64,000 bases of DNA from assembly GCA_000421045.1 (NCBI GenBank), contig ATWC01000001.1:62001-126000 (forward strand). Reading direction: 5' to 3'. Both the position numbers and the translations under genes were made by a program. Shown piece by piece: positions 13,609 through 28,384 of this stretch; the first letter of the stretch is position 1, and the number at the start of each line of letters is the position of its first letter. Origin of the DNA: Lachnospiraceae bacterium NK4A179 (GTDB lineage: Bacteria > Bacillota > Clostridia > Lachnospirales > Lachnospiraceae). The notes beneath the pieces were generated by a model that was not told the DNA's origin, did not search any database, and worked only from the letters and a program-made list of their open reading frames with translations.

Positions 13609-13722
13609 TTAGCAATAATCTCCCGGCATTTCTTTTTTTATTTTTACGCGATGGCATTATACTACCATTTGTAGGGCTCTATGGGCCTACGGGCTTGAAT
13701 TAACAATATATTGGAATGAATC

Positions 13723-13755
13723 AAAAAACCGCCTCTTTTTGTGAGGCGGTTAAAA
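13723..13755 (-). terminator. Rho-independent terminator
   Basis: The 9-bp stem AACCGCCTC/GAGGCGGTT has a 7-base loop and is followed by T6 on the minus strand. It lies downstream of the diguanylate cyclase gene and insulates the DUF4832 gene. Confidence 0.7.
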
Positions 13756-13859
13756 GCTCAATAAGTCACGAGACAGGATTCTCCGACTCCAGTCATCTGA
13801 TAAAATGTTTCAAGAAAAAATATGGCGTAACGCCTTATAAATATCGTTACGCCACCTAA
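13743..13859 (+). pseudogene. Remnant of an AraC-family regulator C-terminus
   Basis: Reading frame 1 from 13743 to a TAA at 13857 encodes a string including HETGFSDSSHLIKCFKKKYG followed by VTPYKYRYAT. This matches the second helix-turn-helix of AraC/XylS regulators (usual pattern GFSDxSxFxRxFKKxxGxTPxxYR). There is no start codon, the upstream helix is degraded and the frame is preceded by a terminator stem, so it is a fragment of a lost gene. It is not detectable as a normal ORF. The last bases double as a terminator hairpin for the opposite strand. Confidence 0.55.
13815..13853 (-). terminator. Terminator of the diguanylate cyclase gene
   Basis: The perfect 9-bp stem GGCGTAACG/CGTTACGCC has a 12-base loop, and a T-rich tract follows on the minus strand, 11 bp past the stop codon. 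Confidence 0.65.
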
Positions 13860-13863
13860 GCCA

Positions 13864-14949: not shown

Positions 14950-15002
14950 TTAGTCTTTTCCTCTCTTGTTTGCATCAACCATGCGATCTGCATTTAATAG
15001 CT

Positions 15003-15044
15003 CAAAAAAAGCGAACATTGAATAAGAATATTCAACGCCCGCTT
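15003..15044 (-). terminator. Strong terminator in the leader of the diguanylate cyclase gene (possible attenuator)
   Basis: A 16-bp stem with three G-U pairs (arms 15029-15044 and 15009-15024) has a 4-base loop and is followed by T7 on the minus strand. It lies 170 bp beyond the SGNH hydrolase stop and 55 bp before the GTG of the cyclase. It begins exactly at the stop codon of a 15-codon ORF, so it could end the upstream operon, act as an attenuator, or both. Confidence 0.75.
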
Positions 15045-15090
15045 ACCACAATAATGCAAGATCATTTTGGTTCGTACCGCAAATAAGCAT
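15043..15090 (-). CDS. Putative 15-residue leader peptide upstream of diguanylate cyclase
   Basis: The ORF MLICGTNQNDLALLW starts at ATG 15090, 6-7 bases after GGGAG, and its TAA overlaps the first bases of the terminator stem. A ribosome at the stop would cover the 5' arm and prevent hairpin formation, so translation could couple to read-through into the cyclase gene. It is too short to judge by similarity; the evidence is the position, the ribosome site and the hairpin. Confidence 0.4.
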   Translation of the reverse strand: MLICGTNQNDLALLW

Positions 15091-15121
15091 AGACTTACTC
15101 CCAGCTTTATAATTTATACAT

Positions 15122-15150
15122 ATTTTACAATCCCAAGAGTATCAAGTCAA
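15122..15150 (-). promoter_or_regulatory. Putative sigma-A promoter upstream of the leader peptide
   Basis: TTGACT, 17 bases, then TAAAAT on the minus strand, about 35 bases before the leader ATG. The surrounding DNA is AT-rich. The rest of 15151-15214 shows nothing else recognisable. Confidence 0.5.
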
Positions 15151-15214
15151 TTTTATTGTGAAATTTTTACAATCCAAGATGGATCAATCTGCATTTATAT
15201 ATTAAATTGTATGA

Positions 15215-15838
15215 TCAATCTAAAAGCGGCTCCAGCACACTTATGACCGCATCCGCAAGAGCTCTGTGTCCCTCTTCCTCCATATGTTCTTCATCTTTAT
15301 GGCTGACTACAGCATGATCGGATGCTGCTAAGAAAAGTGTGGAGTATTCCGCAGACAACTTTCTGTATTCTGCTTCCAGCTGCTTTGAAACATAAACAGA
15401 ATTCTCATTAAACTCTGTATCATATCCATCTTTCCATACATCATTTCCAAGATGTATGGGTGAGACCAAAAGGATCTCAATATCTTCTTTTAGATTTCTA
15501 AATTCTTCTATGCAGGCTCTAAGCCCCTCTGCGATCTGCTCTGCACTAAGAGCATAAAAGCTTTTGCAGTCATTGGTCCCAAGCATCAGAACCACTATAT
15601 CAACATCCGGATGCGAACATAACGCATCTTTTATGGAATCAAGTCCTTTCCTTCCCGGTCTGAACTCATCTTCATAAACAGTCGTTCTTCCGCATACACC
15701 GTCTTCTATAACCTCAGATTTTCCTCTGAGCCTTTCTCCAAGTATGCCTGTCCATCTGGTATCTGCAGGATAGCGACTGTCGGTTCCCGGGATAAGCCCC
15801 CAGGTATTGGAATCACCAAAGCATAGAATTTTTTTCAT
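15215..15838 (-). CDS. SGNH/GDSL-family hydrolase (arylesterase-like)
   Basis: This 207-residue cytoplasmic protein has all four SGNH blocks: FGDSNTWG (Ser nucleophile), the Gly block near residue 60, LGTNDCK (Asn, residues 91-97) and SDHAVVSHKDEEHMEEEGH, which carries the catalytic Asp/His. The pattern GDSNTWGLIPGTDSRYPADTRWTGIL matches the lysophospholipase/arylesterase subgroup. It hydrolyses an ester or acetyl group; the substrate is unknown. It lies 8 bp after the GNAT gene and is the last gene of the long minus-strand run that begins with the nitrogenase-like genes, though it may be only loosely related to it. Confidence 0.85.
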   Translation of the reverse strand: MKKILCFGDSNTWGLIPGTDSRYPADTRWTGILGERLRGKSEVIEDGVCGRTTVYEDEFRPGRKGLDSIKDALCSHPDVDIVVLMLGTNDCKSFYALSAEQIAEGLRACIEEFRNLKEDIEILLVSPIHLGNDVWKDGYDTEFNENSVYVSKQLEAEYRKLSAEYSTLFLAASDHAVVSHKDEEHMEEEGHRALADAVISVLEPLLD

Positions 15839-15846
15839 CGTTTACC

Positions 15847-16329
15847 TCAAAAATTTAGTCTCATCTGATTCCATTTTACACCTCCTATCCTTGATCCGGA
15901 AAGTCCTTCATTGACAAAACCAAATCCGGAGTAAAAACTGATAAGACTGTCTTCACAGGTAAGAACTATCCCGGACCTGCCTTCATTTTTAACGTCTTCA
16001 ATGACTTTATTCATAAGTTTTCCCGCATAGCCATGGTGTCTGTACTCAGGTCCTGTTACGACTGAAAATATCATCTGCCATCTGCCTTCAGGTTCGTGAA
16101 GACTTGCATTATCATACATTTCATCGTTCAGATCCTTAGTATCGGTGTCAAAACCGTTTATAAAAGATACTATAGTGCCATCCTCTTCAAGCACCCAGAA
16201 ATGATCAGAAAAGGTCTCAAGTCTTTTTCTTATACTTTCCTTTGATGCTGCCCATCCGGCCGGGAAAGCCGTTTTTTCAAGTTCTGTAAGCCTGTCGAGG
16301 TCATCTATATTCGCATGTCTTATCTGCAT
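15847..16329 (-). CDS. GNAT family N-acetyltransferase
   Basis: This 160-residue single-domain protein has the acetyl-CoA loop VTGPEYRHHGYAGKLM (Q/RxxGxG/A type, about residues 95-110) and a C-terminal FYSGFGF motif typical of small-molecule acetyltransferases. It resembles the arylalkylamine-type GNAT group. The acceptor is unknown; in this operon an amine or amino-acid analogue linked to sulfur metabolism is possible but unproven. It lies 16 bp downstream of the ABC ATPase gene. Confidence 0.85.
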   Translation of the reverse strand: MQIRHANIDDLDRLTELEKTAFPAGWAASKESIRKRLETFSDHFWVLEEDGTIVSFINGFDTDTKDLNDEMYDNASLHEPEGRWQMIFSVVTGPEYRHHGYAGKLMNKVIEDVKNEGRSGIVLTCEDSLISFYSGFGFVNEGLSGSRIGGVKWNQMRLNF

Positions 16330-16345
16330 ATTTACTATCCTTTCT

Positions 16346-17041
16346 TCATGATGCCTTTAACGCATCCTTTTCATTTACACACTTGCCGTATTCTATCCTG
16401 TATATCTCATCCGCTGCGGGAAGGATATCTTTTTCATGAGTCACAAGGATAACCGTTGCTCCATCACCTGCCGCTGTCTTTAACAGTTCTATAACAATAT
16501 CCGAATTTTCTTCATCCAGATCATTGGTAGGTTCATCAGCCAGTAACAGATGTGGGCTTTGGATCATAGCTCTTACAACAGAGACTCTGCGTTGTTCCCC
16601 GCCTGAAAGGATCTCTGTTTTACAATCACGGAGATGATATATCCCGGCCTTTTGCATAAGATCATCGGCACGTTTAAATATATCTGTATCCGAAACCGTC
16701 CCATCCATGTAAAAAGATACAGGAAGCAATATATTTTCTTTAACGGTGAGCTTTCCCAGATCACATCTGTTCTGCGGAATTATCCCTATATTCTTGTTTC
16801 TGAAGCGGCAGAGTTCATTTTCCGATAGAGAATAAATATCCGTGCCATCTATCAAAACACTTCCGGTATCAGGCTTAATCAGTCCGCCCAGCATATTTAC
16901 AAGACTGCTCTTACCGCTTCCGGAATGACCGATAAAAGCGGCAATGATCCCATCACCTATCTCTATGTTTATATTATCTGCAGCATTTACTTTTTTATCC
17001 CCCCTAAGAAAGCTCTTGCTCAGATCATCAGTTTTTATCAT
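16346..17041 (-). CDS. ABC transporter ATP-binding protein (MacB/LolD type)
   Basis: This 231-residue protein has Walker A GHSGSGKSS, signature LSGGEQRR, Walker B LLLADEPTNDLD and the H-loop VTHEKD. The DEPTNxLD form and its coupling to an FtsX-type permease place it in the MacB/LolCDE-like export or mechanotransmission class rather than among importers. It starts 1 bp after the permease stop, so the two are translationally coupled. It forms a complex with the permease at 17043-18251; the cargo is unknown. Confidence 0.9.
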   Translation of the reverse strand: MIKTDDLSKSFLRGDKKVNAADNINIEIGDGIIAAFIGHSGSGKSSLVNMLGGLIKPDTGSVLIDGTDIYSLSENELCRFRNKNIGIIPQNRCDLGKLTVKENILLPVSFYMDGTVSDTDIFKRADDLMQKAGIYHLRDCKTEILSGGEQRRVSVVRAMIQSPHLLLADEPTNDLDEENSDIVIELLKTAAGDGATVILVTHEKDILPAADEIYRIEYGKCVNEKDALKAS

Positions 17042-17042
17042 T

Positions 17043-18251
17043 TCAATCTCTCCTAAGAATGACCGCAGGATCGGCTCTGTCTATCCTTCCGATCCATAAT
17101 GCAGCGGCAACCGGGCCTGTGATCGCAGTAATTATCGCTGTTCCAAGAAAAATGATCAAAAGTTCCGGACCTGATACCGTCATATACGGTATATCCGTAT
17201 TGATCTTTATAGCATTGCCATAAACGAGCACAAGAGTTAGTGCCAGGACTGCCCCCGGTATCGATCCCAACAGACTTTGGATAAATGCCTCCGTAAAATA
17301 CTGCCTTTTTTGCCTTCCCGGGATCAATCCAAGCATTCTCACAACAGCAAACTCCTTTTCCCTTTCCGTTACAGATAATCCAAAAAGGATCACAAGAACA
17401 GCAAAAGAGATCACAAAAAATGCTATGCATATAAACATGAGCATGCTGCTTATAAGAGAAAGTCCATCTGAGATATTACTTATCATCCCGGCAGAAGAAA
17501 CCACATCAACTCCGTCTATGCTTTTCCGTATCCTTTTTTCAACATCATCAGTTTCATATCCCTCGGATATTTTTACCAGTATGGCTGATATGCTCTCCTT
17601 AGGCTTTGTTTCATCCGGAAACACAAAGCTTTTTTCCAAAGCATAATCCATAAGCTTATTGATAGTTTCCATATCAGCAAAAACCGCATTATCGAGGCCT
17701 GTTCCGGTCTCTGACAGCTGTGCTTTGACATTGAATCTGTGACCATACAGTTCGATAGAGCCACTATCAACAAGCACATTGCTTCCGGCTATTATTTCCC
17801 TGCTGTCATCATTTGGCGTAATGTTATCCTTCAGTTCAAGAAACTGGGATTGTATCCACGGACTTACAACAAAATCACTCCCCGGGTCATATCCTATTAT
17901 CTCAACCTTGACCGAACAGCAGGATGCATTCAATGACGTGAGATAAAACTGGGCCGTCGCACTCTCAACACCTTCTGTATGACTCACCAGGTCATAAACA
18001 GATGAATCCATGTAGAAGTATCCTGTTGCACCCTGAAGAAGTATATCCTGAACACTTTTATCACTTCCTTCAGGGATCACGATAAGATCCGCACCAAGCC
18101 TGTTACTTGTGCTTTCAAGTCCGTTCTGAAAGCTTTTTACAAGTGCACTTCCGCCGGAAAGTGAAAAGGACAGCAGGGCTGTCATAGCAGCGACACACGC
18201 TGTCCTAAACGGGTTGCGTATTACATTTATCAAAGGTAGCTTATTTTTCAT
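17043..18251 (-). CDS. FtsX-like ABC permease (MacB type)
   Basis: This 402-residue protein has one N-terminal helix (about 15-40), a large extracytoplasmic domain (40-260) and three C-terminal helices in the FtsX arrangement (about 270-395). The conserved cytoplasmic loop SVTEREKEFAVVRMLG is present. It overlaps the DUF4418 gene by 11 bp and abuts its ATPase, forming a compact three-gene unit. The family exports peptides, lipids or drugs, or acts as a mechanical coupler. The placement directly behind the sulfur-type importer suggests a role in the same physiology, but the substrate cannot be inferred. Confidence 0.87.
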   Translation of the reverse strand: MKNKLPLINVIRNPFRTACVAAMTALLSFSLSGGSALVKSFQNGLESTSNRLGADLIVIPEGSDKSVQDILLQGATGYFYMDSSVYDLVSHTEGVESATAQFYLTSLNASCCSVKVEIIGYDPGSDFVVSPWIQSQFLELKDNITPNDDSREIIAGSNVLVDSGSIELYGHRFNVKAQLSETGTGLDNAVFADMETINKLMDYALEKSFVFPDETKPKESISAILVKISEGYETDDVEKRIRKSIDGVDVVSSAGMISNISDGLSLISSMLMFICIAFFVISFAVLVILFGLSVTEREKEFAVVRMLGLIPGRQKRQYFTEAFIQSLLGSIPGAVLALTLVLVYGNAIKINTDIPYMTVSGPELLIIFLGTAIITAITGPVAAALWIGRIDRADPAVILRRD

Positions 18252-18660
18252 CTGAAACTTTTCCGGACTTTAAATTTCTGACAGCTCCAAATATTCCCAC
18301 AGCTATCAGCACTATGCTTATAACAACCACAGAAGGTTTTGTCACAGCCACACACTGCATCGTCTCCATCTTGCAAAGTCCTATGAGAAATGTGACCAGT
18401 GCAATGTTATATATGCCTAAAAAAGTCTGAGCCAATGCTACAGCCCCTTTTGCTTTAACATCATTTATCACCAGATGAACAACCGAAAGTGCTGCCGATA
18501 TTATCCCGCTTCCGAGCAATGCTCTGGAGGCCCAGTGACATCTCATGAATGAGCCATCATCCTTTGGTCCGCATACAGGAAAAAGAACAAATAACCCTGT
18601 TATAAGAAACACCGCAACCGCTAAAAAAACGATGCCTTCTATATCTAATTTTTTCTTCAT
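18241..18660 (-). CDS. DUF4418 family membrane protein
   Basis: This 139-residue protein has four membrane helices. It carries the DUF4418 features FPVCGPKDDGSFMRCHWASRA, with paired Cys and His residues on the outer face after the first helix, and a further Cys pair near residues 100-107 (CKMETMQC). The Cys/His content suggests metal or disulfide chemistry at the membrane surface. In Clostridia such genes often precede FtsX-type ABC permeases, as here (11-bp overlap). The molecular function of the family is not known. Confidence 0.72.
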   Translation of the reverse strand: MKKKLDIEGIVFLAVAVFLITGLFVLFPVCGPKDDGSFMRCHWASRALLGSGIISAALSVVHLVINDVKAKGAVALAQTFLGIYNIALVTFLIGLCKMETMQCVAVTKPSVVVISIVLIAVGIFGAVRNLKSGKVSDEK

Positions 18661-18682
18661 AATTCACGCCTTTCCATTCTAG

Positions 18683-19471
18683 TCAAATATAGTATTCCGG
18701 TTCAGGTTCCAGACTAGCCAGATGGAATCTGTCCAGTATCCTGTTCCTGTATTCGATAAAATTCTCACTTGCCCGGTTTCTTTTTTTAGAGAGATTTACA
18801 TCAAGTATCTCTGCGATCTTTCCGGGACGCGGTGTCATGATCACAATTCGATCAGAAAGATATACTGCTTCATCCACATCATGAGTTACCAGTATCATTG
18901 TTATGCCACTATTTCTCTGTATCTCAAGCAGCTTATCCTGGAGATCTGCCCTTGTAAAAGAATCAAGCGCCCCCATAGGTTCATCCAAGAGTAAAATCTC
19001 AGGATCGTTTATAAGCGACCTTGCAATCGCCACTCTTTGAGCCATTCCACCGCTTATCTGATGCGGATATGCTTTTTCAAAGCCCTGCAATCCGGTCAGT
19101 TCGATAAAATGCGGTATCTTATCCTTTTCCTTCCCATACACACCTCTGGCTTTTAAACCAGCAGCTATGTTCTGTTCAACTGTCAGCCAGGAAAACAATC
19201 CACCCTGCTGGAATACATATCCTCTTTTGGGATCAGGGCCTGTTATGGGAGTGTCACCAAGAGATACCGTACCTGATGCAGGCTTATCGAGCCCTGCGAT
19301 CAGGCGCAGCAATGTTGTCTTGCCGCATCCGGATGCACCGATGATCGAAATAAATTCGCCTTTACGCACCTCAAGATTTACATTCCTTAGTGCTTCAACC
19401 TCTTTCTCCTCATCATTTCCGCCATATGTTCTGTATATATTTTTAACAGTAAGGATCACATCATTTTTCAT
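18683..19471 (-). CDS. Sulfonate/nitrate/taurine-type ABC importer, ATP-binding subunit
   Basis: This 262-residue protein has Walker A GASGCGKTT, signature ISGGMAQRVAIARSL, Walker B ILLLDEPMGALD and H-loop VTHDVDEAV. The DEPxGALD and SGGMxQR forms are those of the SsuB/TauB/NrtD group. The ATG at 19471 overlaps the permease stop as ATGA, so I prefer it to an in-frame GTG 21 bp upstream. With the permease and lipoprotein it forms a complete importer, here probably for an organosulfur compound feeding the nitrogenase-like enzyme and MetY (inference from context). Confidence 0.88.
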   Translation of the reverse strand: MKNDVILTVKNIYRTYGGNDEEKEVEALRNVNLEVRKGEFISIIGASGCGKTTLLRLIAGLDKPASGTVSLGDTPITGPDPKRGYVFQQGGLFSWLTVEQNIAAGLKARGVYGKEKDKIPHFIELTGLQGFEKAYPHQISGGMAQRVAIARSLINDPEILLLDEPMGALDSFTRADLQDKLLEIQRNSGITMILVTHDVDEAVYLSDRIVIMTPRPGKIAEILDVNLSKKRNRASENFIEYRNRILDRFHLASLEPEPEYYI

Positions 19472-20496
19472 ACGACCAATCCTTTCTGCCACCTTAATAC
19501 ACGGTTGCGGATAATGCTTATGCCTTTTGATATAAGTGAAAAGAGAACTGCCATTACTACGATAGAAGCAAATACTTTATAATACGCACTCCATACTTTT
19601 GATGCATTTATATAATATCCAAGGCCTCCGGGCTGTCCCATCATTTCGGCCATTACAAGCGTTGTAAACGCAAACGCATTTGCCGTTCCGATACCCGTAA
19701 ATATATGAGGCATTGCATACGGTATAGCCACACGGAAGATCTGATACTTTGTATCAGCTCCAAGAGTCTTAGCCGCTTCAAACATAACCTTTGGTGTGCT
19801 CATGATCCCCTGTGCCGTAAGAGATGCTATAGGGAACCATGCACAGATGATTATCAGAAATACCGCTGCAGTAAACGGTGTCGGCAGAAGAGTCAGTGCA
19901 AAAGGCATCCATGCAACTGCAGGGATCACACCTGTAATATTAAGTACAGGCGTTACCCAATAGCTGATCTTTGGAAACCATCCGATAAGCACTCCTGTAC
20001 CGATCCCAAACAAAACTCCGAGACTGAATCCTGCCACATATAACCTGAGCGAATAAAGTGTATTGGTAAAAATATACTCAGGCTCTTCAAGAAACGCCTC
20101 TGCAATGCCGGCAGGCCCGGGAAAGAACGGCTGTGGCAGTATCTGAAGCTTTGTTCCGGTCACATCCCAAAGTGCCAGAGCAATACCGCATGCGAAACGA
20201 AATTTTGCTTTTTTGATATATGCCGCCCTGGCATTCTTGTCTGCATATGATAAGAATCCGGATATTATGTACCCAACAGCCAGTGCGATCAGTAGCAGAT
20301 CATAAAGATCATTCATATTGAAGACCAGTCTTCCGAACTGATAGTCTTTTATAACCACGCCCTCTGCAACCTGGGCAAATAATCTGTTCACAAGTATCGC
20401 GACAACAAATCCACCGGCCGAAAGAAAGAGATGTCCTGTATATTTCCGATTTGCTATAAAAACAGCTTTTTCACTTGTTTCAGCTACTGCTTCCAT
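19468..20496 (-). CDS. Sulfonate/nitrate/taurine-type ABC importer, permease
   Basis: This 342-residue protein has two additional N-terminal helices before the usual six of the SsuC/TauC family. The cytoplasmic coupling loop EAAKTLGADTKYQIFRVAIPYAMP matches the EAA motif of binding-protein-dependent permeases. AAGGAGG sits 6 bases before the ATG at 20496; a TTG 21 bp upstream opens the frame but lacks a ribosome site. The gene lies 29 bp after the binding-protein gene and overlaps the ATPase gene by 4 bp, so the three are translated together. Confidence 0.87.
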   Translation of the reverse strand: MEAVAETSEKAVFIANRKYTGHLFLSAGGFVVAILVNRLFAQVAEGVVIKDYQFGRLVFNMNDLYDLLLIALAVGYIISGFLSYADKNARAAYIKKAKFRFACGIALALWDVTGTKLQILPQPFFPGPAGIAEAFLEEPEYIFTNTLYSLRLYVAGFSLGVLFGIGTGVLIGWFPKISYWVTPVLNITGVIPAVAWMPFALTLLPTPFTAAVFLIIICAWFPIASLTAQGIMSTPKVMFEAAKTLGADTKYQIFRVAIPYAMPHIFTGIGTANAFAFTTLVMAEMMGQPGGLGYYINASKVWSAYYKVFASIVVMAVLFSLISKGISIIRNRVLRWQKGLVV

Positions 20497-20525
20497 TAGT
20501 TTCCTCCTTAATTCCAAAACCGCCT

Positions 20526-21614
20526 TTATTTGGAGAGATCTTCATCAGAAATATCAAAATAAGCTTTCTCTATAAACTCATCCGCAGGTGTTTTAAGATA
20601 ACCTATGTTATTGAGCGCCTTGGAAAAGTACAGAACATTTTCTTTAGTGTTCTGGGAATTGCTTTTCCTTGTTTCTTCAGACGGATATTCATAGGATGTA
20701 ATAAGTTCTATCGCAAGATCCTTATCTTCTATCTGTGAATACTTTCCTTCGATAATAATATTAACTGCTTCTTCCGGGTTCTTGCTAATAAAGTCCTGTG
20801 CCTTCCTGATAGCTCTAAGCATTGCATATATCTCTTCAGGGTCCTCTTTAAGAACTTTGTTGGAACCATAGATAAAGCAGCAATACTTACCTGCAAAGGG
20901 CTCATCTGTAGTGATATTGAGGATAGTGCGGACTGATCCAGCCTTTTCAGCAACAGATGCTAAAGGATCCCACATTGCAGCCACATCAATATCTCCGTTT
21001 TTGAGTGCTTCCAACTCGAGCGAGCCATCTGAAAAAGCTACGAATGTAACTTCACCAGCAGAAGCCGCAGCTGAAATCCCTGCATTTTCAAGCCACACGC
21101 TGGCTACCTGATAAGGTGTGCCGCCTATCTCATCAACACCAATGGTAAGACCCTTAAGATCCTCTGCCTTCTGTATGGGAGAATCAGGTTTTACAACAAG
21201 CTTGATACATCCGTTATGAAGACCGTCTATAACACTTACTTCCACACCGGATTCGATCGAAGGGAAGAACTGAAAGTCACCGTTTGTGATAGGGATACTT
21301 CCATTATTCAGTCCCACCTTACGAGTCTCGGAATCAGCAGAGATAAGAGTTACCTTAACGCCTTCTTCAGCAAAATATCCGTTTTCATAAGCTATATATA
21401 AAGGTGCTCCGCAAAGCGCTCCGTCAAGAGCCGGAAGATCTGCTTCCCACTTATAATCTGCAGTGGTTTCGGTTGTGGTTTCGGTTGTGGTTTCAGCTGT
21501 TTTTCCCTCTGGAGCTGCGGGCGCAGGTGATGAAGATGCCACTCCACATCCGGTGAAAAGTATCGCAGATATGAGACCTACGGTTCCAAGTGTGCGTCGG
21601 ATTTTTTTGTTCAT
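20526..21614 (-). CDS. Sulfonate/nitrate/taurine-type ABC importer, substrate-binding lipoprotein
   Basis: This 362-residue lipoprotein has signal and lipobox LFTGC (Cys23), then a Thr/Glu-rich linker (about 30-50) and an NMT1/SsuA-like periplasmic-binding fold. GAPLYIAYENGYFAEEGVKVTL near residue 65, and KAEDLKGLTIGVDEIGGTPYQ in the middle, are characteristic. The family binds alkanesulfonates, taurine, nitrate, thiamine precursors or aromatic sulfur compounds. Placement between metY and the transporter genes in a nitrogenase-like operon argues for an organosulfur ligand. The absence of an SsuD/TauD oxygenase fits an anaerobe using a reductive route. Confidence 0.85.
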   Translation of the reverse strand: MNKKIRRTLGTVGLISAILFTGCGVASSSPAPAAPEGKTAETTTETTTETTADYKWEADLPALDGALCGAPLYIAYENGYFAEEGVKVTLISADSETRKVGLNNGSIPITNGDFQFFPSIESGVEVSVIDGLHNGCIKLVVKPDSPIQKAEDLKGLTIGVDEIGGTPYQVASVWLENAGISAAASAGEVTFVAFSDGSLELEALKNGDIDVAAMWDPLASVAEKAGSVRTILNITTDEPFAGKYCCFIYGSNKVLKEDPEEIYAMLRAIRKAQDFISKNPEEAVNIIIEGKYSQIEDKDLAIELITSYEYPSEETRKSNSQNTKENVLYFSKALNNIGYLKTPADEFIEKAYFDISDEDLSK

Positions 21615-21670
21615 ATTTTTTCTCCTTTGTTTAGTCCTTATGTTTATGCCGTCAATGTTGTTTCAACTTA

Positions 21671-22990
21671 TTATTCTGAAAATGCGATTTTAAAAGCCTG
21701 TTCCAGATCGGCGATCAGATCATCCACATCTTCAAGACCCGCAGATATTCTTATAAGATTATCCGGTATATCTGCGATCTTCTTTTCCTTATCTTCAAGC
21801 TCAGAATGTGTTGTATCCGGAGAATCAACTATAAGACTTCTTACATCACCAAGATTCACATGATAATGGAAAAGTTTTGTTGAATTCAGGAATAGCTCCT
21901 TTTGCTCCTGTGAACCGATAAAGCCGAACGAAAGGATTCCGCCTGCTCCGTTAGGAAGATTCTTCTTCGCAATATCATAGAAAGAACTGGAGAAAAGTCC
22001 CGGATATCTGACAAAATTTACATGTTCATTATCTTCAAGGTACTGTGCCAGCTTAAGAGCAGTCTTTGACTGTCTTGAAAGTCTTTCGGAAAGGGTTTCT
22101 ATGCCAAGCACGGTAAGATATGCATCAAAAGGTGACAGAACAGAACCAACCAGATCAAGATATTTTACCCTGAGTCTTACTGTAAACGGAGTTTCAGGGA
22201 AAACTTCTGTAACAGTCCTCCAATTACCGGCATCATCCCTGAGCGTATAATACTTCTCATCAAACTGCGGATAATGTCCATTGTTGTAATTGAATTTACC
22301 GCTTTCAAGAACTATACCTGCGATCGCATTTCCATGACCGTTTAAACCTTTTGTTGCAGAATAAACAACAATATCTGCTCCGTGTTCAAAAGGTTTGTAA
22401 AGATACGGCGTAGCACCCGTATTATCTACAACGAGAACTATACCGTGATCATGTGCAACCTTTGCGATCGCATCAATATCAAGTACATATGCGTTGGGAT
22501 TGCTTATGCTCTCTACAAAGATAGCTCTTGTATCAGGCTTAATCTCATCAGCAAGCAATTCAGGTTCAAGTATGTGTTCCGCAGTATCGATATGTATCCC
22601 GAAAGGCTCATACACCTTTTTGAAACCATCAACACTTCCACCATAAATATAAGGTGAAACAAGCACTCTGCCGCCGCCTTCAGCTAGGTTGAATATAGTG
22701 TTGCTGATCGCAGCCATTCCCGAAGCAACCGTAACTGCACCGGCTGCGCCGTCAAGTTTGCTTATTTTTTCCTCAAGGACTAAATTTGTAGGATTGGAAT
22801 CCCTTGTGTAAAGGAAACCTGTTTTCTTCAGTCCAAAAAGATCATGGGCCTCCTGCACATCCTCAAACTCAAATGCTGCAGTTGCATAGATCGGAAGTGA
22901 AACCGCCTTTAAGTTTTCATACGGATCATATCCTGCAGTTATTCTCTGTGTATCAAATCTGTAACCTTTATCGTCTGCTCTGTATGCCAT
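21671..22990 (-). CDS. metY: O-acetylhomoserine sulfhydrylase (homocysteine/methionine synthase type)
   Basis: This 439-residue PLP enzyme of the Cys/Met metabolism family has the PLP-binding Lys in VVYSATKGLNGHGNAIAG, a substrate/PLP loop ASGMAAIS and the Asp in VVDNTGATPYLYKP. Length and the FDTQRITAGYDP opening fit O-acetylhomoserine sulfhydrylase rather than the shorter gamma-lyases. It condenses O-acetylhomoserine with sulfide to homocysteine, or with methanethiol to methionine. The ATG at 22990 follows TTGGAGAA and is preferred to a TTG 15 bp upstream. Its place directly after the nitrogenase-like nifH gene is the main hint that the operon releases sulfide or methanethiol. Confidence 0.87.
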   Translation of the reverse strand: MAYRADDKGYRFDTQRITAGYDPYENLKAVSLPIYATAAFEFEDVQEAHDLFGLKKTGFLYTRDSNPTNLVLEEKISKLDGAAGAVTVASGMAAISNTIFNLAEGGGRVLVSPYIYGGSVDGFKKVYEPFGIHIDTAEHILEPELLADEIKPDTRAIFVESISNPNAYVLDIDAIAKVAHDHGIVLVVDNTGATPYLYKPFEHGADIVVYSATKGLNGHGNAIAGIVLESGKFNYNNGHYPQFDEKYYTLRDDAGNWRTVTEVFPETPFTVRLRVKYLDLVGSVLSPFDAYLTVLGIETLSERLSRQSKTALKLAQYLEDNEHVNFVRYPGLFSSSFYDIAKKNLPNGAGGILSFGFIGSQEQKELFLNSTKLFHYHVNLGDVRSLIVDSPDTTHSELEDKEKKIADIPDNLIRISAGLEDVDDLIADLEQAFKIAFSE

Positions 22991-23044
22991 GTTAGTATTC
23001 TCCAATCTGATCGTATGTACTCAATGATCGATCGCTGCGATATG

Positions 23045-23917
<873 letters not shown>

Positions 23918-23987
23918 TTAACCTTTTTCTTTTCTGTTAATTTGTTGTGTAATAAAAAGTGCGATCAGTAATTGCGCTTTCAAATTT

Positions 23988-24896
23988 TTAGCCGTGGCTG
24001 AAATTCTGTGTCGGCTCCTGTTCAGAACCGTATATAAGCTTTGAAATATTCTCACCGCCTGGTATACCCACAGCATCAGCGCGGCATCTTTTGCAATGCA
24101 TGAATACATCGATATATTCGCCTGCCTTGCTTCTGGTTTCATCTATCTCTTTGCAGGTCGGTGCTCTGCATCCTGACAGCTGCGCCTGAGGGATAAGCGG
24201 GATAATGTTGTATATCTTTGCTCCCGCAGCTGCAACCAGTTTTGCCACAGCAGGAACATGCTCCATATTGATTTCAGGGACTAACACGGTATTTACCTTT
24301 ATCGTTATCCCTGCAGCTGCCACTTCCCTTATTCCGCTGATCTGATTATGGATAAGTATCTCTGCAGCTTCTTTTCCGGAGTACTGCTTTCCGTGATAGA
24401 CGATCATATTGTTTAACTTAGCCTCTATCTCAGGATCTACTGCATTTACTGTAACCGTAAGTGAATCGATACCTATATCTATGATCTCTGCAGCCTTATC
24501 CGGCAGGAGCAGACCGTTTGTACTCATGCACTTGATGATCTTCGGATATTTCTCTTTGATCTTTCTAAAAGTCTCCAGTGCATAATCCGTCGCAAGCGTA
24601 TCTCCGGGACCTGCTATACCGGCAACCGTGATATCTGGATTGATAGCGATCGCTTTTCCGACCGCCTCAACTGCTTCATCCGGCGTGATCACAGTACTGC
24701 TGACTCCGGGTCTGTCTTCGTAGTCATTTATATCCCTTCTGCAAAACCGGCAGGCTATATTACATCCGGGCGACACAGGCAGATGTATCCTGCCTTTGTT
24801 ATTAGCATGTTTCCTTGCAAAGCACGGATGATTTAATGTCAATTCTGTATAACTGGTTCCCAAATCAAACCGCCTCTCTCTGCCCAAAGTGTTCAT
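23988..24896 (-). CDS. NifB-like radical SAM cofactor synthase (NifX-less form)
   Basis: This 302-residue protein has the radical SAM Cys triad at Cys45, Cys49 and Cys52 (GCNIACRFC), and the NifB-specific HPC (Cys25) and HCKRCRADAVG near the C-terminus. It lacks the C-terminal NifX domain, as archaeal NifB does; that domain is encoded separately just upstream. NifB makes the 8Fe-9S-carbide core (L-cluster/NifB-co) from 4Fe-4S clusters and SAM. The annotated ATG overlaps the previous gene by 32 bp and has a weak ribosome site. A TTG at 24863, placed 1 bp after that gene's stop and 9 bases after AGAGAGG, is a credible alternative start that keeps every motif. Confidence 0.87.
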   Translation of the reverse strand: MNTLGRERRFDLGTSYTELTLNHPCFARKHANNKGRIHLPVSPGCNIACRFCRRDINDYEDRPGVSSTVITPDEAVEAVGKAIAINPDITVAGIAGPGDTLATDYALETFRKIKEKYPKIIKCMSTNGLLLPDKAAEIIDIGIDSLTVTVNAVDPEIEAKLNNMIVYHGKQYSGKEAAEILIHNQISGIREVAAAGITIKVNTVLVPEINMEHVPAVAKLVAAAGAKIYNIIPLIPQAQLSGCRAPTCKEIDETRSKAGEYIDVFMHCKRCRADAVGIPGGENISKLIYGSEQEPTQNFSHG

Positions 24897-25209
24897 CCAG
24901 CAGTTCGGATACTATCTTGTCTATAAAGCCATGAGCCTCGAAAACCCTGATTCCCTGCCGGATCATATGGTATGCAGCCGATTCACCGATCTTTAATACG
25001 AAGACTGCGTCAACATCCTTAAGCAATCTTGTGACCTCATCGAATCCGCCCTCACAATGCCCCTTGCAGAGAGGATTGGCTCTTCTTTCTTCCACATATG
25101 TCACTTCACCACCTGCCAGATCATATATCTGAAAATAATCAGCAGATCCAAAGTGTTCATCTATATATGCATTATTGGAAGATGCAAATGCTATTCTTGT
25201 TGTTCTCAT
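24865..25209 (-). CDS. NifX/NafY-like dinitrogenase iron-cofactor-binding domain protein
   Basis: This 114-residue single-domain protein has the motifs IAFASSN, IDEHFGSADYFQIYD and a conserved Gly-rich end, as in the dinitrogenase iron-molybdenum cofactor (NifX/NifB C-terminal) family. Members bind the NifB product or FeMo-co and hand it to the apo-enzyme. The ATG at 25209 has GGAGG 5 bases upstream; longer frames overlap the K gene and lack a site. CKGHC in the middle is a possible metal-binding pair. It lies between the K and B genes, as expected for a carrier between synthase and enzyme. Confidence 0.8.
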   Translation of the reverse strand: MRTTRIAFASSNNAYIDEHFGSADYFQIYDLAGGEVTYVEERRANPLCKGHCEGGFDEVTRLLKDVDAVFVLKIGESAAYHMIRQGIRVFEAHGFIDKIVSELLDEHFGQREAV

Positions 25210-25228
25210 AATTTCCTCCATCCTATCC

Positions 25229-26569
25229 TTATGCAAACTTTGATAATGTTCCGCTGTAAATATCCTCAATAAGTCTGAGACCACCGGAGAATCCTACATA
25301 ATTTGCATTCAGGACCATTCGATAATCTGTAGGCAATGCAGCATTGATAAAATCAAATCCTCTGTCATCAGCTAACTTCTTATCCCATCCTGATCCGATG
25401 ATCAGGCCCTTGCCCCTGTGGCTTAAGGATTTTATCTTCTCCTGAGCCCTTCCGGCATCAGGAAGGAAGAAGACTTCAATATCTCTTTTTTCTGAAATAG
25501 ACTGAAGTTCATCAGCTATCTTCTGCTGGAATTTCTCCGGAGTGTCATCCACTATAAACTGTTCCTTCGGGATAACTCCTGTTTCATTTAACAGGAATTT
25601 GGAAAGTCCCAGAACATAGCTTGCGTCATGAATGATGTGTACATATCCCGGCAGACCGTATCTGAATTCCAGAAGGAAGGTTGCCAGTTCTTCGATCTCG
25701 GCATAATAAGCTGCATCTTCTTTCTTCAGATACTTCCTTACTGCCAGCTCGTTAATGTCAGCTCCGTTCTCTATAGCAAATGCAACTACCGCATTCAGGA
25801 ATTTTTCAGTTTCATTAGCACCGATCGGCATATTCGGATACTGAAGGAACGGCTGTCCGTATAAATCCTTAAGATGCTCCACTATCGGAAGGCCGTACCA
25901 CGGAGATACCAGAATGTTAAAATTGGCTTCCGGTATCTGTTGCCATTCCTTAACGCCTTTAGACTCAGAGCCAAACAGGATATTTACCTCGAGTCCTACA
26001 GCTTCAAGCAGGCGCTTATATTCAGCAAGATTTCCTTTCCAGAACAGATCCTGGTAAGGGATCGAAGCAAACAGATTAACTGTGTTTTTGCGGCTTCTGA
26101 AAGTGCTTTCGTTCTCGAAACCTGACACATACTGATCGATGATCGCATTAACAACCGCTGAATGTGCTACAAAGTTATTGCTTTTAAATCCCGGGCTTTC
26201 AACATATACTACAGGCTTGCCCTGATCTCTGAATTCTTCCGCTACGGAAGCCACATCATCACCGACTATTCCTGCAGTACATCCCGTGAATATTACCTGC
26301 AGATCCGAATCAAGTATCTTGTAGGAATTCTCAAGCAGCTCCCTTAATTTATTTATTCCGCCAAATACAACTTCTTTCTCCGAGAAATTGGTGCAGGGTA
26401 CTGTGCTTCCTCCTGCATATCCTTTGTTCCTTGAAAAGAATTCAGATACATTGTCTCCGCATCCGGGTCCCGAATGAAGAATGGGAAGCGCCTTAGGTAT
26501 TGCTACTACGCTCTGCATAGCTCCCAGCGCACATGTAAATCTTTCCTGTTCTATTATTCCTGCTCCCAT
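25229..26569 (-). CDS. Nitrogenase-like component 1 beta subunit (NifK/MarK homologue)
   Basis: This 446-residue protein of the oxidoreductase/nitrogenase component 1 family is shorter than typical NifK (about 520). Cys13 (FTCALG), Cys37 (GPGCGD) and Cys97 (FTGCTAGIVGDD) line up with the three P-cluster ligands of NifK. The ATG at 26569 is 1 bp after the D-gene stop with GGTGG upstream; the longer frame to 26656 overlaps the D gene and is rejected. It pairs with the D subunit as an alpha2beta2 tetramer that receives electrons from the NifH-like protein. It could also be read as NifN-like, but no second K exists here, so it is most likely the catalytic partner. Confidence 0.83.
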   Translation of the reverse strand: MGAGIIEQERFTCALGAMQSVVAIPKALPILHSGPGCGDNVSEFFSRNKGYAGGSTVPCTNFSEKEVVFGGINKLRELLENSYKILDSDLQVIFTGCTAGIVGDDVASVAEEFRDQGKPVVYVESPGFKSNNFVAHSAVVNAIIDQYVSGFENESTFRSRKNTVNLFASIPYQDLFWKGNLAEYKRLLEAVGLEVNILFGSESKGVKEWQQIPEANFNILVSPWYGLPIVEHLKDLYGQPFLQYPNMPIGANETEKFLNAVVAFAIENGADINELAVRKYLKKEDAAYYAEIEELATFLLEFRYGLPGYVHIIHDASYVLGLSKFLLNETGVIPKEQFIVDDTPEKFQQKIADELQSISEKRDIEVFFLPDAGRAQEKIKSLSHRGKGLIIGSGWDKKLADDRGFDFINAALPTDYRMVLNANYVGFSGGLRLIEDIYSGTLSKFA

Positions 26570-26570
26570 T

Positions 26571-28061
26571 TCATACCACCTCTTTTTTCTTTGCTTCTTT
26601 AAGGAACATATCCGGACTCTGTTCCATCCACCAGTCTGTATAAGGATTGATCGCATGCTTTGAAAGATTCTTTACAAATTCATCATTCTCAAGAGCATCG
26701 ACCACCTTTTCGCCGTAATTTACTAGGCCTTCATATCCCATATTTGCCTGCTCATCTTCAACCAAAAGTGCAGGTATTCCAAGTTTTGCAGCCCACAATG
26801 TGATACCGCCGTGTCTTGCAAGAAGGATATCCGGTCTGATCCTGTTGAGTACATTTACGAACTCAAACTCCTGCTTCGAGCAGACATTGTAATTCGGTAC
26901 ATCGCCATAATCCTTAACTCTTCTTGAGAGCAGATCAGCTGCTTCAAAGCCTGAATCAAATTTAGGATCATGATGGAAGACACTTGCTCCGGCTGCCTCC
27001 ATGCCAAGGTCTCCTACTATGTTCAGAAGAGCATGTCCATGAGCCGAACCGGCTGTTACATATGCCCTTACTCCCTTAAGTTTCTTTCTGAGTTCTTCTA
27101 TCTTGGGCAGATACTCTTCTTTCTTCTGATGTATAACCTCTTCTGCCACGTCCTCTTTTCCAAGGAGCTTTCCAAGCTCTCTGAACCACCTGTCAGTCTG
27201 TATGATTCCGTAAGGTGCTGCAGTTTTGATCTCAGGTACACCGAATTCCTGTTCAAGAGCCGCTCCAAGGTACGAGCCAAGTGTCGGACATATCTGAACT
27301 GTTGCTATAGCTTCAGATGCATGACCCAGTCCATCCACCGTCGAAAACGGTGTTATCAGATTAGGCTTTACACCAAAGGGTTCGAACCATTTGGTGAAGA
27401 CATCCGATCCCCAGAAATTGATAACGTTGATAACATCCTTTCTTTTCTGTACAGGAGGCTTTACAAGCTTCCTTACGATCCCGTGATAACCGGCATCAAA
27501 ACCTGTAGTCCATACTGTTGACTTGAAACCTTCACAGAAGATAGCCACTACCGGCTTGCCGATCTCGGCTTCTGCCTCATCACATACGCTTTCTATATCA
27601 TCACCTATGATGGCTGATGCGCATGAACTGAGAACAAATATTGCCGATGCTTCAGTCCTCTCATTTACTTCGCGGATCGCTGCCGCAAGTTTTCTTGCAC
27701 CACCGTATACCGTGTCAGTTTCCTTCAGATTGGTGGAATACATCCTTCTTGTGGTAGGATCCTTGATCCCTCTTCTGGGATTTGCATTTACCAGATAGGT
27801 GAATTCAAATTCATGAAGGCAGGAAGAGCATCCAACCGGTCCGTGTATGATAACTGCAGCATCCTGTATCAGTGATACCATGCAGGCAGCTTTTGATATT
27901 GAACAGCCGGCGCACTGGGAAAAACCTCTTCCTCTGTTACCGGGATGACCGCAGCAGGACTTTTCAACCAGATCCTCAGCAGTTCCCTGATAACCTGTTA
28001 TCGATCCAAGCCTGATCTCTCTGATAGATACTTCGGGTATACTTAAATCAATTTGGCTCAT
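26571..28061 (-). CDS. Nitrogenase-like component 1 alpha subunit (NifD/MarD homologue)
   Basis: This 496-residue protein is similar in length to NifD. P-cluster-type ligands are visible: Cys53 (in CAGC), Cys78 (HGPVGC) and Cys147 (SSCASAIIGDD). Cys258 in VQICPTLGSYLG aligns with the NifD cofactor Cys275, so a metallocluster is probably bound. The region equivalent to cofactor His442 reads LLVEDEQANMGYEG and has no His, unlike nitrogenase. Extra Cys residues (36, 37, 50, 60, 81) lie near the cluster site. With no nifE/nifN nearby, this fits the methylthio-alkane reductase-like clade better than true nitrogenase. GGAGAA precedes the ATG. It is the first gene of the operon, behind an attenuator-type leader. 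Confidence 0.85.
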   Translation of the reverse strand: MSQIDLSIPEVSIREIRLGSITGYQGTAEDLVEKSCCGHPGNRGRGFSQCAGCSISKAACMVSLIQDAAVIIHGPVGCSSCLHEFEFTYLVNANPRRGIKDPTTRRMYSTNLKETDTVYGGARKLAAAIREVNERTEASAIFVLSSCASAIIGDDIESVCDEAEAEIGKPVVAIFCEGFKSTVWTTGFDAGYHGIVRKLVKPPVQKRKDVINVINFWGSDVFTKWFEPFGVKPNLITPFSTVDGLGHASEAIATVQICPTLGSYLGAALEQEFGVPEIKTAAPYGIIQTDRWFRELGKLLGKEDVAEEVIHQKKEEYLPKIEELRKKLKGVRAYVTAGSAHGHALLNIVGDLGMEAAGASVFHHDPKFDSGFEAADLLSRRVKDYGDVPNYNVCSKQEFEFVNVLNRIRPDILLARHGGITLWAAKLGIPALLVEDEQANMGYEGLVNYGEKVVDALENDEFVKNLSKHAINPYTDWWMEQSPDMFLKEAKKKEVV

Positions 28062-28111
28062 AATTTAGTTCTCCAATTCCCTTTCTTTTTGATTGATTGA
28101 TTTTTAGGCGC

Positions 28112-28149
28112 AAAAAAACCCGGAATCTTTTAAAAGCGCAGATTCCGGG
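28112..28149 (-). terminator. Intrinsic terminator (attenuator) before the nitrogenase-like operon
   Basis: The perfect 10-bp stem CCCGGAATCT/AGATTCCGGG is followed by T7 on the minus strand. It lies between the leader ORF and the D gene, 50 bp before its ATG. Since no gene ends here except the leader ORF, it must regulate entry into the operon. Confidence 0.88.
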
Positions 28150-28237
28150 CAGATTTCAATAACTATGTTTACGGATCTATATCTATGAATACACAAAATT
28201 ATACTCACATTCCGACATAGCAATACTGCCCGGTCTG
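28139..28237 (-). promoter_or_regulatory. Antiterminator pairing between leader ORF and terminator arm
   Basis: CCGGGCAG at 28226-28233 (codons 24-26 of the leader ORF) is exactly complementary to CTGCCCGG at 28145-28152. CAGA/TCTG (28234-28237 with 28139-28142) extends it beyond a 2-base bulge. This pairing consumes the 5' arm of the terminator, so the two structures exclude each other. Coordinates are read on the minus strand. Confidence 0.65.
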
Positions 28238-28302
28238 GAACATGAATACATTCGTCCACATCTGAAATTTTGTCTGAGTAATGACTCGAACAAATTCAGC
28301 AT
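28183..28302 (-). CDS. 39-residue Cys-containing leader peptide of the nitrogenase-like operon
   Basis: The ORF runs from ATG 28302 to TAG 28183, with an excellent ribosome site (AAAAGGAGGA, 8-base spacing). The product begins MLNLFESLLRQNFRCGRMYS and has Cys at positions 15, 21 and 32 and internal Met at 18 and 29. It sits between promoter and attenuator, and its codons 24-26 form one arm of the antiterminator. A ribosome paused at Cys15 would leave that arm free and favour read-through; one paused at Cys21 would cover it. A sulfur amino-acid sensing leader is the natural reading. A stable small protein cannot be excluded. I do not recognise a family. Confidence 0.7.
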   Translation of the reverse strand: MLNLFESLLRQNFRCGRMYSCSRPGSIAMSECEYNFVYS

Positions 28303-28326: not shown

Positions 28327-28343
28327 CCTACCTATCAAGTAGG
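28327..28343. promoter_or_regulatory. Operator palindrome 2 (CCTAC-N7-GTAGG)
   Basis: A perfect 5-7-5 inverted repeat just downstream of the -10, over the probable transcription start. It has the same architecture as the site over the -35, 41 bp away (about four helical turns). The pattern resembles operators of Rrf2-family regulators (IscR, CymR), an inference. Confidence 0.6.
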
Positions 28344-28351
28344 TTGTGTGC

Positions 28352-28380
28352 ATATTACAAACAATTTCCTATTTTGTCAA
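28352..28380 (-). promoter_or_regulatory. Near-consensus sigma-A promoter of the nitrogenase-like operon
   Basis: TTGACA (28375-28380), 17-base spacer, TAATAT (28352-28357) on the minus strand. Transcription would begin near 28345, giving a leader of about 285 bases before the D gene. The -35 lies inside one palindrome and the start site inside another, so repression is expected. Confidence 0.82.
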
Positions 28381-28384
28381 TAGG
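28368..28384. promoter_or_regulatory. Operator palindrome 1 (CCTAT-N7-ATAGG) over the -35
   Basis: A perfect 5-7-5 inverted repeat containing the whole -35 hexamer. Binding here would block RNA polymerase. It is paired with the site at 28327-28343. Confidence 0.6.

Follow-up and report, generated by a model that had tools for sequence, protein, structure and literature searches.

Results

Organisation of the locus

The window, the whole 64,000-nucleotide stretch of Lachnospiraceae bacterium NK4A179 that was analysed, carries on its minus strand a nitrogenase-like operon whose features are listed in Table 1. Domain matches agreed with the initial annotation in placing D-K-X-B-H genes, a MetY gene and SsuABC-type importer genes between 18,683 and 28,061, all on that strand and separated by small gaps or overlaps. 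The TTG start of the NifB-type gene was chosen by eye, many homologues being of about 291 residues; the protein scored 264.2 bits against TIGR01290 (cut-off 343.65), its C-terminal part being represented here by a separate gene. As the binding protein of the importer scored below the cut-off of TIGR01728 (90.9 against 163.5 bits) and matched PF09084 (NMT1/THI5), whose members bind varied ligands, the name SsuABC-type is used at family level only.

The range originally marked out ended at 28302, the start codon of a leader open reading frame (ORF) that is part of the system, and began at 15215, thereby spanning DUF4418, FtsX-type permease, ABC ATPase, GNAT and GDSL genes. Inclusion of the first three proved justified, since the same module recurs near the cluster in 12 further loci of the 126 annotated (in 11 genomes, L042 and L159 apparently coming from the same one), and the alternative view of these genes as unrelated, non-recurring neighbours was consequently dropped. 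The GDSL gene was found near the cluster in the window only, among the same 126 loci.

Table 1. Features of the operon, its control region and the downstream module, in order of transcription
Feature	Position	Strand	Basis or remarks
Promoter region	28327..28384	-	operator-like CCTATTGACAAAATAGG (28368-28384) overlaps -35 TTGACA; -10 TAATAT ends 28352
Second palindrome, CCTACTTGATAGGTAGG	28327-28343	-	within promoter region
Leader ORF, 39 codons, 3 Cys	28183..28302	-	contains RCGRMYSCSRPGSIAMSE; relatives before housekeeping metY (C36) and metY of G066
Predicted antiterminator strand	28221..28234	-	inside leader ORF, 26 nt past first Cys codon; duplex -18.1 kcal/mol
Intrinsic terminator of attenuator	28112..28150	-	hairpin 28119-28150, T run
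Catalytic subunit D, 496 aa, Mar-sister clade	26571..28061	-	similarity, ligand residues, tree
Catalytic subunit K, 446 aa	25229..26569	-	similarity, ligand residues
NifX / NifB C-terminal-type cluster carrier, 114 aa	24865..25209	-	PF02579
NifB-type radical SAM protein, core domain only	23988..24863	-	domain matches
NifH-type ATP-dependent reductase, 284 aa	23045..23899	-	domain matches, similarity
MetY, O-acetylhomoserine sulfhydrylase family	21671..23005	-	domain matches, similarity
Importer substrate-binding lipoprotein, SsuA/NMT1 family	20526..21614	-	domain matches, similarity
Importer permease, SsuC-type	19468..20517	-	domain matches
Importer ATPase, SsuB-type	18683..19492	-	domain matches
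Accessory module: DUF4418 (18241-18660), FtsX-type permease (17043-18251), ABC ATPase (16346-17041)	16346..18660	-	recurs beside cluster in relatives
GNAT acetyltransferase, doubtful member	15847..16329	-	same module precedes it in L145, L153, L158

Similarity, phylogeny and ligand residues

The nearest solved structure for both catalytic subunits was that of the Rhodospirillum rubrum methylthio-alkane reductase MarBHDK (PDB 9FMG; PMC12552129), which stood far above any nitrogenase: D scored 413 bits to MarD compared with 120 for the next kind of enzyme, and K 390 compared with 66, the identities being 42% and 43%, respectively. In a tree of D proteins built without Vnf and Anf, which were compared in structure and domain searches only, the window D fell outside the NifD clade and within a group (clade A; support 100/98), known in print as Nfa or group IV-A, that joined the Mar group at 99/96 and lay apart from Nif. 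The Mar group itself (five rows, 97/90) did not include the window D, which belongs to its sister clade. Mar-type and clade-A D genes lie side by side in Pectinatus, an arrangement that suggests different jobs for the two.

The H protein was of NifH type rather than MarH type, at 458.2 bits to NifH 1cp2, which we take to be that of C. pasteurianum, compared with 306.5 bits to MarH (identities of 77% and 55%), and it scored above NCBI's NifH cut-off.

All of the cluster ligands of Mar are present in the window D and K, namely the six P-cluster cysteines, the cofactor ligands Cys270 and His429, and Arg428, the proposed hallmark, these roles being those assigned in the available portion of PMC12552129. 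Throughout clade A, Cys66, 91, 158 and 270, Trp195, Phe199, His375, Arg428 and His429 of D were retained in 91 of 91 rows, and Cys32, 56 and 121 of K in 79 of 79 (9FMG numbering). The positions equivalent to AvNifD Gln191 and His195, as located in that portion of the same paper, hold Trp and Phe in all 91 D rows. Mar His194, a residue near the cluster, is replaced by Val183 in the window D, and by Val, Ile or Met in every one of the clade-A rows with His in none, a change that may mean a substrate other than a methylthio-alkane.

A search of the whole genome with PF00148 yielded four matches, all within two D/K-type pairs. No NifE or NifN was recognised in the genome, the second D/K-type pair reaching only 67 and 44 bits against a NifE cut-off of 505.1; the combination of Nif-clade placement with nifEN elsewhere, which the initial annotation had named as contrary to its proposal, was thus absent. 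MetA was present. Among other carriers of clade A, the cultured Eubacterium oxidoreducens and Clostridium sporosphaeroides likewise showed no PF00148 set of Nif-like kind.

Operator and cysteine leader

The operon is preceded by an operator and a leader of the kind found at metY. Across the 3.22 Mb genome, exact matches to the operator pattern CCTATTGACANNRTNGG number three, each at a metY or nitrogenase-like promoter: that of the present operon, that of the housekeeping metY, and that of a third metY adjoining the second nitrogenase-like cluster. Allowing up to one mismatch gave four genome matches to the -35-overlapping site, the three exact ones included, and two to the reversed control. 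Three more exact matches were found in loci of relatives, upstream of metNIQ-D-K, Rrf2-D-K-cysK and sufCB/metY. An earlier candidate operator, CTACTNGATAGGTAG, gave six matches at up to two mismatches as against 31 for its reversed control, and was replaced by the -35-overlapping site.

The predicted antiterminator duplex was equalled or bettered by five of 300 single-letter shuffles. When terminators and antiterminators were sought in 14 leaders, L046, L102, L106 and L111 gave no terminator and L107 gave a wrong one; upstream regions of metY were taken from 30 loci, of which L103 was unreadable and L124 offered only 147 nt. Sequence relatives of the leader were confined to three of 250 family genomes, that of the window included. 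A regular expression for the leader, applied to 43 loci, recovered L035, L046 and the window, plus an ORF in L086 judged spurious, which places the motif at two clade-A operons (the window and L046) in that set; none was found in a scan of 84 loci, and the leader is therefore not a mark of clade A. The leader peptide matched no Pfam family, an Rfam scan of the window returned nothing, and no published description of a cysteine leader-attenuator family with the motif CCRMxxSRa turned up in a literature search. Rfam scanning of 19 relatives' loci detected one T-box, in L140.

Gene neighbourhoods of clade A

An intact clade-A D was present in 76 of the best 80 loci. Neighbourhoods were counted in the 44 clade-A loci flanked by at least 5 kb on both sides, those with less on either side being left out, as were L128, L135, L155 and L178, which had no intact D in the ORF set; L042/L159, L043/L173 and L044/L166 are near-duplicates, the contigs of each pair being equally long. 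MetY, other Cys/Met PLP or CysK (cysteine synthase)-type genes accompanied 37 of these 44 loci, and SsuABC- or MetQ-type importers 25, while seven had no sulfur gene among their nameable genes, L151, L169 and L172 also having no importer. The linkage of importer and MetY, correctly held to differ from the Rhodospirillum arrangement, recurs in many other genera.

Discussion

The gene neighbours, metal-binding residues and on-switch of the operon point away from N2 fixation and towards a role in scavenging sulfur to make methionine and cysteine. The enzyme is probably (at roughly 0.8) a clade-A C-S reductase, induced by cysteine shortage, that would pass its thiol product to MetY. The reaction, substrate, product, identity of the regulator and role of the DUF4418/FtsX/ABC module are as we infer them from sequence comparisons. 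The NifB-type and NifX-type proteins would build an [Fe8S9C]-type cluster that D would bind through Cys258 and His417, the P-cluster being ligated by three cysteines from each of D and K, and the NifH-type protein would deliver electrons at the expense of ATP. The SsuABC-type importer would take up a non-volatile organosulfur compound, from which the enzyme would release methanethiol or sulfide by reductive cleavage of a C-S bond, and the dedicated MetY would combine the thiol with O-acetylhomoserine to give methionine or homocysteine. Cysteine shortage is predicted to turn the operon on through an operator of the Rrf2/CymR type together with an attenuator based on cysteine codons.

The original proposal, an enzyme resembling Mar that helps to provide sulfur amino acids, is borne out by D/K similarity, ligands, phylogeny, neighbourhoods, operator and leader, and the lack of a recognisable NifEN; it is refined in that the enzyme belongs to the clade sister to Mar, outside Mar proper, and has an H of NifH type. 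Nitrogenase-like enzymes that scavenge organosulfur compounds have been described from two phototrophs, as Mar (PMC12552129) and Isr (PMC11423573), in the available text of those papers. With Mar the window system shares the P-cluster and [Fe8S9C] ligands, Arg428/His429, Trp195, Phe199 and His375, a putative NifB-type maturase and a link to methionine synthesis; unlike Mar, it has a separate NifX-type carrier, an SsuABC-type importer and MetY within the operon, and a cysteine attenuator. A MetY link and a sulfur-metabolism role for group IV nitrogenase-like genes were already suggested in 2012 (PMC3464626), where, in the available portion, such genes lie beside an O-acetylhomoserine sulfhydrylase gene as they do here; regulatory, importer and clade-wide analyses were not seen in that portion.

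That the enzyme is Mar in function, cleaving volatile methylthio-alkanes such as dimethyl sulfide or methylthioethanol while the importer serves another purpose, would agree with the shared ligands, with Arg428/His429 and with the MetY linkage, known beside such genes in R. rubrum from the available part of PMC3464626. It is nevertheless unlikely, given the placement of D outside the Mar group, the replacement of His194 throughout clade A, the adjoining Mar-type and clade-A genes of Pectinatus, and the importers at 25 of 44 loci. Still less probable is a sulfonate reductase like IsrBHDK, releasing sulfite from imported isethionate or taurine, to which the linked importer lends some weight: according to the accessible text of PMC11423573, Rhodobacter capsulatus requires both isr and ssuCAB to use isethionate, IsrBHDK and SsuCAB pairing, like the window system, a nitrogenase-like enzyme with an SsuABC-type importer to assimilate sulfur, with sulfite as the deduced product. 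By the same text, IsrD lacks the cofactor Cys and His and two of the P-cluster Cys, retaining one, and IsrB is not NifB-like, whereas the window D has every one of these ligands and its B appears NifB-like. Furthermore, no match to the NIR_SIR sulfite reductase domain was obtained in the genome, and no sulfite reductase of that type in seven of nine other clade-A genomes examined, so that any sulfite released would go unused unless a different enzyme could reduce it.

A true alternative (group IV) nitrogenase, with sulfur genes that are incidental or supply cofactor sulfur, is the most improbable of these readings, although H lies above the NifH cut-off, the cofactor Cys and His ligands are present, and Endomicrobium proavitum (genome PMC4505116), whose single D match (E <= 1e-20) is 61% identical and falls in the same clade, is stated to fix N2 in the available portions of PMC9147875 and PMC11257099. 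Against it stand the genome without recognised NifEN, the Trp/Phe replacements, the operator and leader of metY, and the E. proavitum locus itself, metY-ssuACB-D-K-X-PLP lyase-cysK-nifB-X-H, where Mar is the best match of D (433.8 bits; next 148.9) and also of H (487.5 bits; next 281.3). That Nfa ('group IV-A') system thus resembles the window's in grouping metY, ssuACB, nifB, X and H at a single locus, but differs in its extra PLP lyase- and cysK-type genes, in an H of MarH type (78% to MarH) and in having been published, so far as the available text shows, as a functional nitrogenase. As a clade-A enzyme within a sulfur-gene locus, its assignment is directly testable.

It seems somewhat better than an even bet that clade A constitutes a second type of C-S reductase built on the nitrogenase cofactor, with a substrate determined by the importer linked to it (SsuABC- or MetNIQ-type), that the E. 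proavitum enzyme is a member, either mis-assigned or reducing both N2 and C-S bonds, and that the present operon is governed by the CCRMxxSRa leader-attenuator family.

The placement of the reported E. proavitum case among metY, ssuACB, PLP lyase- and cysK-type genes casts doubt on whether group IV enzymes fix N2. Because an H such as the present one exceeds the NCBI cut-off for NifH and shares 77% identity with NifH 1cp2, nifH surveys can count bacteria of this kind as nitrogen fixers, and, if the C-S reductase reading is true, diazotroph counts from guts and termites that rely on NifH would include sulfur scavengers. Such enzymes would then operate in many anaerobes of guts, rumens, termites and soils under control tied to cysteine, and the methanethiol, sulfide or light hydrocarbons of guts and rumens may be one output.

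Organisation of the operon

A sigma-70-type promoter (TTGACA-17-TAATAT) on the minus strand of the window is followed by a leader ORF of 39 codons and an intrinsic terminator, then by the nitrogenase-like genes D, K, X, B and H, metY, and SsuABC-type genes coding for a binding protein, a permease and then an ATPase. Pfam and NCBIfam assignments of the operon proteins were concordant: D and K both carry PF00148, X (PF02579) matches NifB in its C-terminal region, the radical SAM protein B comes closest to NifB with a score below the relevant cut-off (264.2 against 343.65 bits), and H lies above the NifH cut-off (455.7 against 394.35).

The DUF4418, FtsX-type permease and ABC ATPase genes that come next are followed by GNAT and GDSL genes. 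FtsX relatives (E <= 1e-5) were present in 14 of 126 annotated loci, the window counted, and adjoined a DUF4418 or ABC ATPase gene in 13, the one without such a neighbour being a weak match in L069. FtsX-bearing modules mostly adjoin SsuB, MetY, PLP or D genes, that of L127 lying immediately 5' of D, and the DUF4418/FtsX/ABC ATPase module was recorded near sulfur clusters in the window, L127, L129, L139, L145, L149, L153, L158, L187, L066 and L073; its candidate roles are perhaps export or thiol stress.

Coordinates and contexts of the features described
Feature	Sequence	Position	Context
DUF4418/FtsX/ABC ATPase module	window	16346-18660	3' of SsuABC-type genes
Endomicrobium proavitum locus	L248	5593-18169	one strand: metY, ssuA, ssuC, ssuB, D, K, MetQ-like fragment, X, PLP lyase-type, cysK-type, nifB, X, H
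Second nitrogenase-like set	L035 (C24, own genome)	11235-16191	H-D-K with FecBCD-type importer
Pectinatus cerevisiiphilus locus	L138	7078-14152	Mar-type D/K adjoining clade-A D/K and MetY
Clade-C operon	L076	11051-15632	Rrf2-D-K-cysK, CCTATTGACANNRTNGG upstream
Tandem leader ORFs	L089 (metY of G173)	1450-1900	two ORFs; Met and Cys codons abundant in the first
CCTATTGACANNRTNGG site	window
CCTATTGACANNRTNGG site	C24
CCTATTGACANNRTNGG site	L177		5' of metNIQ-D-K (spirochaete MAG)
CCTATTGACANNRTNGG site	L076		5' of Rrf2 gene, then D-K-cysK
CCTATTGACANNRTNGG site	L145		between sufCB and metY

Relationship of D and K to methylthio-alkane reductase

The window D scored 413 bits against chain A of 9FMG, the structure of methylthio-alkane reductase (Mar; PMC12552129); its highest score against any other kind was 120, and the equivalent values for K were 390 and 66. 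In a tree of 56 D-type rows without Vnf, Anf, Bch, Cfb or Isr sequences, clade A comprised 25 rows including the window (support 100/98), and its sister (joint node 99/96) was a five-row group (97/90) that held Rhodospirillum rubrum MarD, a D from Pectinatus, two G278 loci and L050, which has a long branch. The Nif rows were separate from clade A plus the Mar group (98/97), and no clade-A row was among those flagged for long branches.

Alignment of 132 D sequences, the window included, of which the 91 scoring >450 bits constituted clade A, showed conservation in all 91 of Cys66, Cys73, Cys91, Cys158, Cys270, Trp195, Phe199, Phe374, His375, Arg428 and His429 (window Cys53, 60, 78, 147, 258, Trp184, Phe188, Phe362, His363, Arg416 and His417), the 9FMG numbering being taken from a printed alignment concordant with PMC12552129 at the sites named there. 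Three cysteines of K were likewise kept in 79 of 79 rows. Arg428 plus His429 has been proposed as a Mar hallmark, and Trp195 and Phe199 occupy the places of nitrogenase Gln191 and His195 (PMC12552129); the 19 most distant D rows kept the cysteine ligands, with Arg428/His429 in four. Since Mar His194 is replaced throughout clade A (Val 40, Ile 28, Met 23; Val183 in the window), the substrate may differ from that of Mar.

Distribution and gene neighbourhoods

D relatives (E <= 1e-60) were found in 35 of 299 Lachnospiraceae genomes. Of 582 confirmed stretches from named genomes the best 80 were retained; 76 of these carried an intact clade-A D, and the hosts included Ruminococcus albus, Eubacterium oxidoreducens, Clostridium sporosphaeroides, Pectinatus, Herbinix, Acetobacterium, Treponema, Endomicrobium and Synergistaceae. 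A plasmid of Candidatus Chlorohelix allophototropha (L086, NZ_CP128401.1) carries a D relative (53%). Its two nitrogenase-like clusters flank MetY and genes for ABC importers, and the D of the first cluster is without the His429 position.

Neighbourhoods were counted within 9 kb of D at the 44 of 90 usable clade-A loci with 5 kb on both sides. MetY was present at 23, other Cys/Met PLP genes at 30, CysK-type genes at 24 and at least one of these at 37, where by rough arithmetic only (~20 such genes per 3 Mb) a random point would have one about one time in ten; SsuABC- or MetQ-type importers were present at 25. For example, the PLP genes of L143 and L248 were nearest to cystathionine gamma-lyase/synthase models at scores below cut-off, and their CysK-type neighbours passed only the cysKM subfamily cut-off. 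Prior literature records MetY adjoining group IV genes (2012; PMC3464626), group IV-A genes together with sulfur genes (PMC10418091), Mar-like D/K in heliobacteria (PMC9147875) and a nitrogenase-like enzyme combined with an importer (PMC11423573).

In Pectinatus cerevisiiphilus, SsuABC-, PLP lyase- and CysK-type genes precede both D/K sets. In clade B, another Mar-related clade (~38-40% identical), nine of 14 H/D neighbour pairs (L053, L055, L057, L058, L059, L061, L063, L064 and L078) are separated by a CysK-type gene, and the product of the clade-B enzyme may therefore pass directly into cysteine.

The enzyme of E. proavitum (strain Rsa215, 1,588,979 bases; PMC4505116) has been taken as a functional nitrogenase, citing Zheng et al. 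2016 (PMC9147875, PMC11257099). Its genome yielded a single D match at E <= 1e-20, which is 61% identical to the window D, falls inside clade A and is nearest to Mar (433.8 bits against 148.9 for the next); H is nearest to MarH (487.5 against 281.3). Its ssuB was located by tblastn. The locus reported as that of a nitrogenase is a cluster of sulfur genes. No proposal of a sulfur role for this enzyme was found in the literature searched, which included passages of PMC12552129 and PMC11423573.

The second nitrogenase-like set (H-D-K) of the NK4A179 genome showed, by eye, an Isr-like cysteine pattern in D and no adjoining radical SAM gene; the same locus holds a divergent third MetY with the operator found in the window and a CCRM leader.

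Operator and leader

The putative operator overlapping the -35 element was described by the pattern CCTATTGACANNRTNGG, built from the sites of the window, C36, G066 and G173. Three exact matches were found in the organism's own genome (the window operon and metY on both C36 and C24) against ~0.05 expected by arithmetic with even base use, the C24 site having played no part in building the pattern; the 2.08 Mb of fetched loci plus window gave five against ~0.03. The L076 Rrf2 protein, which falls short of the cut-offs for both IscR (116 bits) and CymR (91 bits), is a candidate regulator, and these scores together with the operator sites make it likely that an Rrf2-type cysteine or Fe-S regulator acts in the system.

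Sequence relatives of the leader, present in three of 250 family genomes including its own, precede the housekeeping metY on C36 and metY of G066 (E 2.8e-7) and G173 (E 5.5e-4), and the C24 metY likewise has a leader ORF (MDKFILTSDIMMCCRMLISRANHLAG...) after its operator site. Of 30 metY loci from the family, nine had short upstream ORFs bearing CCRM and two more (C36, G066) bore RCGRM; the others had neither kind in a search that favoured Cys-bearing ORFs. Cysteine content was 1.3% in the nine operon proteins, and 3/39, 6/45 and 5/33 in the three leaders of the genome. A terminator plus antiterminator strand was identified in nine of 14 leaders, with <=5 of 300 shuffles equally good. The antiterminator starts 26 nt past the first Cys codon in the window, 42 nt past it on C36 and 16 nt past it in the other seven. 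A cysteine attenuator has been described 5' of cysS in Rhodobacterales (PMC8632094). This regulatory link is strong in NK4A179, whereas most relatives did not show it.

Cys-rich CCRMxxSRa leader ORFs lie 5' of metY in the Lachnospiraceae loci L102, L104, L106, L107, L111, L114, L117, L120 and L121; in L104, L114, L117, L120 and L121, where a terminator was found, the SR codons sit within the antiterminator strand. No description of this family was found in the literature searched.

Probable reaction product

NIR_SIR gave no match in the NK4A179 genome (the control was positive in 11 of 14), nor in seven of the nine further clade-A genomes searched (under 10 handles, since G103 and G302 are the same genome), E. 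proavitum among the seven, at least two of which are incomplete drafts (68% and 82%). MetA is present, and the operon MetY is 38% identical to the housekeeping enzyme, a value compatible with use of a different thiol. Taken together, these sequence data favour a thiol, such as methanethiol, or sulfide, rather than sulfite, as the product.
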